This document shows, in pieces, positions 48,036-50,213 of a DNA stretch of 64,000 bases. The DNA lies in assembly GCF_017640745.1 (NCBI RefSeq), contig NZ_JAEPQA010000009.1, positions 1-64,000 on the forward strand, written 5' to 3'. The stretch is from Nisaea sp. (GTDB lineage Bacteria > Pseudomonadota > Alphaproteobacteria > Thalassobaculales > Thalassobaculaceae). Every line of letters begins with the position of its first letter. The first letter of the stretch is position 1. The position numbers and the translations under genes are program-made. The notes beneath the pieces were generated by a model. It was not told the DNA's origin and did no database searches. It saw nothing but the letters and a program-made list of their open reading frames with translations.

Positions 48036-48770
48036 ATGGGTCTGCGGCTATCCCGTGTGATCGGACATCGCGGGGTGGCCGCTACGGCGCCCGAGAATAC
48101 ATTGACCGGCTTCCGCCTTGCGGCGGAGGCCGGTTTTTCGTGGGTGGAGTTCGATGTCATGCTGAGCGCGGACGAGGTTCCGATGCTGCATCATGACGAG
48201 AAACTGGGCCGCACCAACGATGGCCGCGGCCGGTTCTGCGAGCAGGACGCCGAGGCCCTCAAGAGGCTCGATGCGGGCGCTTGGTTCGCGCCTGATTTCG
48301 CCGGCGAACGGATTCCCGGCTTCGCCGACGCAATCGCCTGCTGCCGGGCCCTTGGCCTTGCGATGAATGTCGAGATCAAGCCGGCGAAAGGACACGCGAT
48401 CCGGACTGCGGAAGTGGTCTCGGAGACGCTGAACGCGCTCTGCCCGGATCTGACGGACCGGATCGTGGTCTCGAGTTTCGAGCGGGACTGTCTGGAAGTG
48501 GCCAAAGAAAAAGCCCCGGATTTTCATCGGGGCTATCTCTGTGAGCGTCTGGCAGACGGGTGGCGGCAAGCCGCCGAAGATCTTGGATGTGTTTCGGTCC
48601 ATCCGAACCATCGCCCGCTTACCGAGGCGGCTGTCGCCGCGATCCGGGATGCGGGCTTCAGAACCCTGACTTATACCGTGAACGATCCGCTGCGCGCCGC
48701 GACCTTGATCGCGTGGGGCGTGGATGCGGTCATCACCGACGAACCTTCCCTGGTGGCCGCGCTCGCCTGA
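48036..48770 (+). CDS. ugpQ: Glycerophosphodiester phosphodiesterase
   Basis: Protein of 244 residues. GDPD motifs are VIGHRGVAATAPENT at the start, FVEFDV-like WVEFDVMLSADEVPMLHHDEKLGRT, and NVEIKP. It splits glycerophosphodiesters to glycerol-3-phosphate and an alcohol. No signal peptide is visible, so it works in the cytoplasm like UgpQ. It lies 5 bases after pnp. Its last 100 bases overlap the end of a ribbon-helix-helix gene on the other strand. Confidence 0.93.
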   Translation: MGLRLSRVIGHRGVAATAPENTLTGFRLAAEAGFSWVEFDVMLSADEVPMLHHDEKLGRTNDGRGRFCEQDAEALKRLDAGAWFAPDFAGERIPGFADAIACCRALGLAMNVEIKPAKGHAIRTAEVVSETLNALCPDLTDRIVVSSFERDCLEVAKEKAPDFHRGYLCERLADGWRQAAEDLGCVSVHPNHRPLTEAAVAAIRDAGFRTLTYTVNDPLRAATLIAWGVDAVITDEPSLVAALA

Positions 48771-49090
48771 GCCGCTCGGCCGGCGTTCATCCGCGCCAGG
48801 TCACGCCAGTATCCCAGCATGAAAACCCGCATCGCGGACGGAACCGAGCTGTCGCCGCGGGTCCGGTCGATTTCATTGATCAGCGCCTTGACGTCATAGC
48901 CGAGCCGCTTCGACACCATGTCGAACATGTCCCACTCTTCCGGATGAAGGCAGATGCTCGTCCGCCGGTTCTCCAGACGGAAGTGACGGCGGACCATGCG
49001 GCTCGCGTCGTTATCTCCGTCTTCTACCGTCTTCAGGGCCGAATTGAATATGTCTTTACCCTGTCCTGACGGTTTGAAGCTGTCTGCCAT
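48671..49090 (-). CDS. Ribbon-helix-helix domain protein
   Basis: Protein of 139 residues. Residues about 34-105 match the RHH_4 type: RRHFRLENRRTSICLHPEEW, then a helical part with VKALINEIDRTRG and AMRVFMLGYWRDL. Such proteins bind DNA as dimers through the RTSI strand. The C-terminal 35 residues look disordered and are encoded in the 100-bp overlap with ugpQ. The ATG at 49090 follows TGGAG. An 18-bp palindrome lies 41 bases upstream. It is divergent from an HTH/PAS-like gene with the same palindrome in its promoter. Confidence 0.75.
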   Translation of the reverse strand: MADSFKPSGQGKDIFNSALKTVEDGDNDASRMVRRHFRLENRRTSICLHPEEWDMFDMVSKRLGYDVKALINEIDRTRGDSSVPSAMRVFMLGYWRDLARMNAGRAAQASAATREGSSVMTASTPHAIKVAARSGSFTV

Positions 49091-49124
49091 GAGGTGTCTC
49101 CAGTAAGTAGGGCATTCATGAGCG

Positions 49125-49155
49125 TCACTATTCCCAGAAAAATGGGAAAGCGCAA
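49125..49155 (-). promoter_or_regulatory. Putative promoter of the RHH gene containing operator O1
   Basis: On the minus strand TTGCGC (49150-49155) precedes, and TAGTGA (49125-49130) directly follows, the palindrome at 49131-49148. Spacing between the hexamers is 19 bases, or 17 if AATAGT is taken as the -10. Both hexamers are weak, as expected of a regulated promoter. Confidence 0.35.
49131..49148. promoter_or_regulatory. Operator O1, 18-bp palindrome
   Basis: TTCCCA, GAAAAA, TGGGAA: 6-bp inverted arms around an A-rich centre. It is identical over all 18 bases to the copy at 49314-49331. It sits in the core promoter of the ribbon-helix-helix gene. Confidence 0.7.
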
Positions 49156-49290
49156 GCGTAAATTGTTTGGCCTACGCGTCTAGCGTGTTGATTTTGCATA
49201 CTTATGTACACAAAAAGAATCTAACCTATTGGTTTTACGGAATAAAAAATTTCCTATCGATTTCGCTCAATTTCGAGCTCTGGTAAAAAA

Positions 49291-49308
49291 TTCCCAAAAA
49301 AATGGAAA
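49291..49308. promoter_or_regulatory. Operator O2, degenerate copy
   Basis: TTCCCA, AAAAAA, TGGAAA: two differences from O1 and O3, one of them in the right arm. It lies 5 bases before O3, with 23 bp between centres, about two helix turns, which would allow cooperative binding. Confidence 0.6.
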
Positions 49309-49337
49309 TTGCATTCCCAGAAAAATGGGAATAGACT
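49309..49337 (+). promoter_or_regulatory. Putative promoter of the HTH/PAS-like gene (leaderless mRNA predicted)
   Basis: TTGCAT (49309-49314) and TAGACT (49332-49337) are 17 bases apart, the spacer being almost exactly O3. The ATG at 49344 is six bases after the -10, where transcription would begin, and no ribosome site precedes it. Confidence 0.4.
49314..49331. promoter_or_regulatory. Operator O3, 18-bp palindrome
   Basis: Identical to O1. It ends 12 bases before the ATG of the HTH/PAS-like gene, directly against a -10-like hexamer. Confidence 0.7.
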
Positions 49338-49343
49338 TGGTAT

Positions 49344-50213
49344 ATGGGTCGATACAAGAAAGCGATATCTCAACTCGAAGCGGAGCTCCGGCACCGCTGC
49401 CACCGCTATTACCTCGAGTCGGGAATACGGAAGTACAAGTTCGCCTCGGCGGCCGGAATTTCCGACACTCTGCTGAAAGATATCGACAGCCCGGATTTCG
49501 AGGCGTCGCTGAAGACGCTTCAGCGGCTCGACGAGGTCATCCCGGAGGAGTGGGAGCCTGCGAGCGACGACGCGGACGAGAAACTGATCGTCCCCGCAAA
49601 GAACGATCCGGTCATCGGATACAAGATCTGGGAAAGCGACCTCAGCCGCAGCCGGAAGATCTATGTCCGCGACGAGATGCTGCACGGGCTCGACCCGGAC
49701 CAGGTGGAGCGCTGCGCGGCCTATATAAATAAAGTGCGCGAACCGGACGGCCGGCTGCTCGAGACGAAATTCAAGATCGCCGTGCTACGCGCGCTGGCGC
49801 CGCAATGCGCGATCCATATCTTCAATGTCGGCGAAGACGACCCGAACGCCTTTTTCATCGAGCACTGGGATAACGGCACCGGTATGTGGAAAGGTGCCGA
49901 CATAACCGGGATGAAGTTCGCCGAACTCGATGACGAGGCCCTGCGGGGCTGTCAGCTCGAGGACTACCTCGTCTGCCGGGAAACCCAGTGGCCGAACCTT
50001 GCCATCGTGCATCGGAATTACGCCCACGGCGAGGAGCGGCGGTTCCTGCGCCTGCTGTTCCCGTTCGAGTCCAAGGACGGCTTGCCGAAGATTCTCAGCA
50101 TCACCCGTCCGCAGACGAACGGACTGGCTGTCGACCTGCTGCAGAAGAAGCTTCCGGGATACGAGCCGGGCGGCGGCGAAGGCGTCGTCGACCTCAGAAC
50201 CCGCCGTCCCTGA
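49344..50213 (+). CDS. HTH regulator with C-terminal PAS-like sensor domain
   Basis: Protein of 289 residues. Residues about 15-70 look like a short XRE-like helix-turn-helix (KYKFASAAGISDTLLKDIDSPDFEASLKTLQRLDEVI). The C-terminal part (about 140-270) has a mixed pattern (AFFIEHWDNGTGMWKGADITGMKF and RRFLRLLFPFESKDGLPKILSI) that resembles the PAS_5 family of alphaproteobacteria; this is a weak match by eye. No ribosome site precedes the ATG and no other Met lies near, so a leaderless start is likely. It probably binds the palindromes ahead of it. The signal is unknown. It converges on fabI with 9 bases between. Confidence 0.7.
   Translation: MGRYKKAISQLEAELRHRCHRYYLESGIRKYKFASAAGISDTLLKDIDSPDFEASLKTLQRLDEVIPEEWEPASDDADEKLIVPAKNDPVIGYKIWESDLSRSRKIYVRDEMLHGLDPDQVERCAAYINKVREPDGRLLETKFKIAVLRALAPQCAIHIFNVGEDDPNAFFIEHWDNGTGMWKGADITGMKFAELDDEALRGCQLEDYLVCRETQWPNLAIVHRNYAHGEERRFLRLLFPFESKDGLPKILSITRPQTNGLAVDLLQKKLPGYEPGGGEGVVDLRTRRP

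Follow-up and report, generated by a model that had tools for sequence, protein, structure and literature searches.

Three conserved palindromes between divergent RHH_4 and XRE-PAS genes of Nisaea, a probable two-promoter switch

Three palindromic sites (O1, O2 and O3) lie in the gap between two divergent regulator genes of the marine bacterium Nisaea, one encoding a ribbon-helix-helix (RHH_4) protein and the other a helix-turn-helix (HTH) protein carrying a PAS fold (XRE-PAS); this three-site arrangement is real and far above chance. One of the two regulators probably shuts off both genes, perhaps with looping of the DNA between them. In the explanation considered best here (probability about 0.6), the XRE-PAS protein would bind O1 to O3, repress both genes, possibly loop the gap, and be released by a signal perceived through the PAS domain; the identity of the binder, the repression, the looping and the signal are the parts that we infer. 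A switch of this kind, compact, with two promoters, near-identical operators, a fixed geometry and a sensor of its own, would allow PAS-controlled repression and short-range DNA looping to be tested cleanly.

Genes, sites and promoters at the locus

The window (the whole stretch of 64,000 nucleotides that was analysed) carries, in this order, truB, rpsO, pnp, a glpQ-like gene, the RHH_4 gene (minus strand), the XRE-PAS gene (plus strand), fabI, fabB, fabA (minus strand) and an Irr/Fur-like gene. Neighbouring genes were named by recognisable sequence, and the order from pnp to fabA was checked in relatives using tblastn. The divergent partner of the XRE-PAS gene is a single RHH_4 gene, surrounded by the core genes pnp, glpQ-like, fabI, fabB and fabA. 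No tRNA was found in the window, and no Rfam match in the gap between the two regulator genes. Comparisons were performed on five Nisaea species, namely the genome of the window and four congeners (G001 to G004), two of which match N. denitrificans DSM 18348 and N. nitritireducens DSM 19540.

An earlier note on this DNA had described the pair as divergent RHH and HTH/PAS-like regulators, and both halves of this description were borne out. The left protein matches the Pfam model PF13467 (E 5e-11, 42.9 bits for a curated cut-off of 25) and has the same length, 139 aa, in all five species. The right protein (80-99% identity between its Nisaea orthologs) has no Pfam or NCBIfam match when searched alone, no Pfam PAS model reaching its cut-off, and its family likewise stays below the cut-offs of both collections. 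When eleven homologues were combined into a profile, residues 13-71 matched SinR (E 4e-6) and further HTHs of the XRE type. The structure model, which gained from the inclusion of distant homologues (mean pLDDT 81, versus 38 for a poor model from the five close orthologues alone, which was not used), places helices at the HTH residues and a PAS fold at about residues 118-258; the PAS part matches LOV/PAS domains of the PDB with a Foldseek E of 2.6e-4 and aligns with PAS domains of the PDB at Z scores up to 8.7. As modelled, the right-hand protein is an N-terminal Cro/CI (SinR-type) HTH joined to a PAS fold. No homologues of it were found in plasmid and phage collections.

Over about 100 bp (48671-48770), the 3' end of the RHH_4 gene is shared with the convergent glpQ-like gene. 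The 139-aa reading frame of the RHH_4 gene, with ARSGSFTV as its last residues, is conserved throughout the five Nisaea species, and the ortholog in a genome of the sister genus (G006) ends earlier.

Table 1. Positions in the window of the genes, sites and other elements of the locus
Feature	Positions	Strand	Description
RHH_4 (ribbon-helix-helix) gene	48671-49090	-	139 aa, ATG start; Pfam PF13467
Putative RHH promoter	49127-49155	-	-35 TTGCGC (49150-49155), 17-bp spacer filled by O1, -10 AATAGT (49127-49132)
O1	49131-49148		TTCCCAGAAAAATGGGAA; invariant across five Nisaea species
Conserved block	49149-49211		CGCAAGCGTAAATTG...TAC-CGTCTAGCGTG...TTGCATAC; 76-98% identical between species; upstream of O1 seen from the RHH gene
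Diverged spacer of constant length, O1 to O2	49211-49288		78 bp; no net length change in five species
O2	49291-49308		TTCCCAAAAAAATGGAAA, degenerate; same imperfect right arm (TGGAAA) in five Nisaea species
Putative XRE-PAS promoter	49309-49337	+	-35 TTGCAT (49309-49314), 17-bp spacer filled by O3, -10 TAGACT (49332-49337)
O3	49314-49331		TTCCCAGAAAAATGGGAA; arms invariant in five Nisaea species, N6 centre alone varies
XRE-PAS regulator gene	49344-50213	+	289 aa; XRE/SinR-type HTH at about residues 13-71, PAS fold at about 118-258

The gap between the two genes (49091-49343, 253 bp) has a G+C content of 38%, against 62% in the 1-kb flanks, in agreement with the contrast already pointed out in the earlier note. 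The coordinates given there for the sites, the identity of O1 and O3 over 18 bases, and the degenerate O2 lying 5 bases from O3 were all confirmed in the sequence; O2 departs from the palindrome arms by one mismatch in 12 arm bases. At one mismatch or fewer, three sites are observed in the gap, compared with a mean of 0.0003 in shuffles of it, and any perfect 6-N6-6 palindrome occurring twice was obtained in 7 of 3000 shuffles. The raw count over the whole window, allowing 2 mismatches, is not unusual (3 sites, reached in 21 of 100 shuffles), and the significance of the sites comes instead from the clustering of near-perfect matches in one gap and from their conservation. O1, O2 and O3 are all present at the same places in 5/5 Nisaea genomes, so that the shared operator proposed earlier was recovered beside the orthologous gene pair in every species of the set.

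Promoter hexamers at O1 and O3 were assigned by eye and then compared across species. Those of the putative RHH promoter are kept in all five species, except for one -35 base in G001; for the XRE-PAS gene, the -35 is invariant, the -10 follows the pattern TANNNT, and the distance from its end to the ATG is 6-7 nt. A consensus scan for sigma-70 promoters at a stricter threshold returned none in the region, the hexamers being weak matches. The earlier note had O1 and O3 each abutting a -10-like TAG hexamer with the same geometry: the sites do sit on both promoters, but the TAG beside O3 varies (TAGACT, TACACT, TAAGGT) and the best hexamer pairs differ in register. With O1 or O3 occupied by a protein, RNA polymerase would be blocked. 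No start codon other than the ATG lies between the conserved N-terminus of XRE-PAS and the in-frame stop that precedes it, and since the -10 ends 6-7 nt before this ATG, the XRE-PAS mRNA is predicted to be leaderless.

Constant spacing across a diverged spacer

The distances between sites (183 bp from O1 to O3, 160 bp from O1 to O2, 23 bp from O2 to O3) are identical in all five Nisaea species. The 78-bp spacer has nevertheless diverged, with identities of 29-74% between species and 29-49% between clades, and it differs by 26% and 36% even inside the two closest species pairs. As a control of length, the window was compared with G001, G002 and G003 at 16 further intergenic regions that have orthologous flanks. 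Length was kept in 1 of 40 comparisons (a 58-bp region, 95% identical) and in 0 of 28 for the 100-320 bp class, these lengths being taken between gene ends extrapolated from tblastn, so that small differences are possible. The RHH/XRE-PAS gap still stands out, because the same tblastn measure gives 253, 253, 253 and 254 bp for the window, G001, G002 and G003, respectively.

As the control regions of 100-320 bp changed length in 28 of 28 comparisons, the fixed O1-O2-O3 spacing is probably under selection; this evidence, which comes from about three well-separated lineages, is strong, if short of final. It is most simply read as a geometric constraint, for example a protein bridge from O1 to O2/O3; a length kept exactly while the sequence itself has become saturated clearly points to such a constraint in evolution. 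Counted in helical turns, O1 and O2 are 15.2 apart (near a whole number) and O1 and O3 17.4 (not whole). The conserved block next to O1 (Table 1), which lies upstream of the RHH promoter and holds CGTCTAGCGTG and TTGCATAC, may be a binding site for the RHH protein or for a further regulator.

Candidate binder, rival readings and reach of the switch

According to the preferred explanation, the XRE-PAS protein would act as a dimeric or higher-order repressor of the three sites. On O3, inside the spacer of its own promoter, its binding would be strengthened by the adjacent O2, resulting in autorepression; occupation of O1, inside the spacer of the divergent promoter, would co-repress the RHH gene. 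A single protein assembly could bridge O1 to O2/O3 and loop the gap, which is suggested by the strictly kept spacing. The protein would then be released when its PAS domain senses a ligand or a redox state, and both genes would rise together.

The XRE-PAS protein appears a more likely binder of O1-O3 than the RHH protein, judging from the distribution of sites. Two of the three (O2 and O3) are at the XRE-PAS promoter, and AT-centred palindromes of their own also mark XRE-PAS homologues that have no RHH gene beside them, for instance TGCGTA-TTTTTT-TACGCA at locus L094 (G004). The arms at the homologues differ from those of the window; further palindromes are TGCGTA-ATAAAA-CACGCA at L095 (G003) and, in genome G018 of a related genus (locus L084), CGTGCA-AAAAAT-TGCACG at -100 with a looser TGTGCA-ATTTTT-TGCATG nearer the start. 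Beyond the lineage of the window, a perfect 6-N6-6 site was found at 2 of 7 homologous loci, against an expectation of about 4-10% for regions of this kind. The proportion is only suggestive, and that no more than two loci have a perfect site and not all seven a convincing one counts against the preferred explanation, as do the weak promoter hexamers and the O1-O3 distance, which is not a whole number of helical turns.

With the RHH_4 protein as binder of O1-O3 and repressor of both genes, XRE-PAS would act elsewhere or be a target only; this reading is judged unlikely. RHH proteins commonly autoregulate, and in the sister-genus genome G006, where no XRE-PAS gene was detected, an RHH ortholog occupies the corresponding locus, flanked by glpQ and fabI, with a degenerate TTCTCT-N6-AGGGAA in the place of O1 (P about 0.009 for that position and 0.07 for any position within 120 bp). 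This site is the main evidence against XRE-PAS as binder; it may belong to the RHH protein, be left over from an XRE-PAS gene since lost, or have arisen by chance. Against the RHH_4 protein, no perfect or otherwise good site lies upstream of the G006 gene, despite a predicted DNA-contacting strand (RRTSI) that is the same there as in Nisaea; moreover, a perfect 6-N6-6 palindrome precedes only 2 of 25 RHH_4 genes from other, unlinked loci, and palindromes do occur at XRE-PAS homologues devoid of RHH neighbours. A third regulator encoded elsewhere, with both genes in its regulon, might also bind the sites, the evidence on the binder being indirect; this is very unlikely given that the five genomes hold no conserved further sites and that forward matches exceed the reversed-pattern control by the locus's own sites only.

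The mode of action can also be conceived differently. XRE-PAS could bind the three sites without looping, the fixed spacing then reflecting another constraint (e.g. a transcript or a site within the spacer that has escaped notice) or chance, a possible though somewhat doubtful alternative. The small number of well-separated lineages, the position of O1 and O3 out of helical phase and the conserved block 49149-49211, which shows that the gap holds other elements, are in its favour; the saturation of the spacer, which makes a sequence element there unlikely, the lack of any Rfam family match and the control regions that do not keep their length speak against it. Far less probable still is an activator on O1/O3 that realigns the promoter from within its spacer in the manner of MerR: the operators are inside promoter spacers and the hexamers are poor consensus matches, but the spacers have an ordinary 17 bp rather than 19-20, and the HTH is of the SinR/XRE and not of the MerR type.

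The switch looks local, with no wider regulon visible, since no excess of sites was detected elsewhere in the five Nisaea genomes (6-9 matches each at one mismatch or fewer, three of them at the locus, against 4-8 for the reversed pattern); the self-contained switch of the earlier note fits this result. A lone exact site elsewhere in the genome of the window (G000:C6:119674) was set aside: it lies 11 bp from a contig end, lacks an AT-rich centre and is not matched exactly in the congeners.

In G018, too, XRE-PAS homologues have RHH_4 genes as neighbours, directly downstream at L155 and downstream in tandem at L154; at L156 the RHH_4 gene is divergent as in the window, with a sub-threshold RHH_4 score. 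Applied as a control to Nisaea sequence amounting to 138 kb (the neighbourhood of the window in three copies), the same scan found no such pairing. This suggests that the association is recurrent, and the repeated pairing offers an opening to the role of the RHH_4 domain. Tentatively, XRE-PAS proteins and their RHH_4 partners (elsewhere a convergent GNAT-like partner) might form an undescribed sensory module of these alphaproteobacteria, with its own AT-centred palindrome per copy and, in Nisaea, a 183-bp loop made by the XRE-PAS protein between the divergent promoters and controlled by a PAS ligand.

A convergent, 3'-overlapping GNAT-like gene (about 240 aa) accompanies XRE-PAS homologues at six loci (L150, 8963-9697; L151, 8930-9661; L152, 8944-9684; L153, 10239-11000; L154, 2281-3162; L157, 456-1163). 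L154 has both RHH_4 and GNAT-like partners, and the XRE-PAS gene of the window is without a GNAT-like one. In the GNAT-like family, one relative only (L041) scores near Pfam Acetyltransf_1; PAS-like ORFs occur near family members in other alphaproteobacteria (L110-L112, L115, L116, L118, L120, L126). Another conserved family combines a similar HTH (PYKLAL...PSLKLARRIASSLP) with a C-terminal part, in Nisaea (L098, L099, L105, L108) and in other genera (L090, L101).

Comparison with known systems

No paper was found in the literature on such an RHH/XRE-PAS pair or on its operator. The earlier note knew of no named system of this form, a statement that has to be corrected for the type of switch, of which RcoLS20 and lambda CI are close precedents. 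By analogy, the closest is RcoLS20 of the Bacillus plasmid pLS20. This Xre-family regulator is a tetramer that controls its own expression, shuts off a divergent promoter and brings the DNA into a loop (Ramachandran et al. 2014, PMC4207663; review PMC6540685). Both systems have an Xre-family HTH regulator gene divergent from the target gene, operators at the divergent promoters with a distant operator (in Nisaea at fixed spacing, the promoters being assigned by eye), and autoregulation combined with repression of the divergent promoter, which is proposed for Nisaea. Looping has been shown for RcoLS20 and is suggested for Nisaea by the fixed spacing only. RcoLS20 differs in controlling a conjugation operon from overlapping promoters, with 75 bp between operators of CAGTGAAA motifs, and in answering to Rap/Phr; in Nisaea the partner gene encodes an RHH_4 protein, distances of 160-183 bp separate sites that are 18-bp palindromes, and a PAS domain forms part of the regulator.

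In the CI/Cro switch of phage lambda, repressors of the Cro/CI HTH superfamily act on clustered palindromic operators between divergent promoters, and the CI mRNA from PRM is leaderless. The Nisaea locus resembles it in HTH superfamily, in clustered palindromes between divergent promoters and in the leaderless mRNA predicted for XRE-PAS; it differs by the absence of lysogeny genes, by the PAS effector domain, by RHH_4 as the second gene and by another layout and spacing of the three sites. VqmA also joins a PAS fold to a DNA-binding domain, and the PAS part of XRE-PAS aligns with it at Z near 8, a value that indicates the common PAS fold only; VqmA has the PAS first and the HTH last, whereas in XRE-PAS the HTH comes first. 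By target or effector domain, the Nisaea switch is of neither the RcoLS20 nor the lambda CI type.
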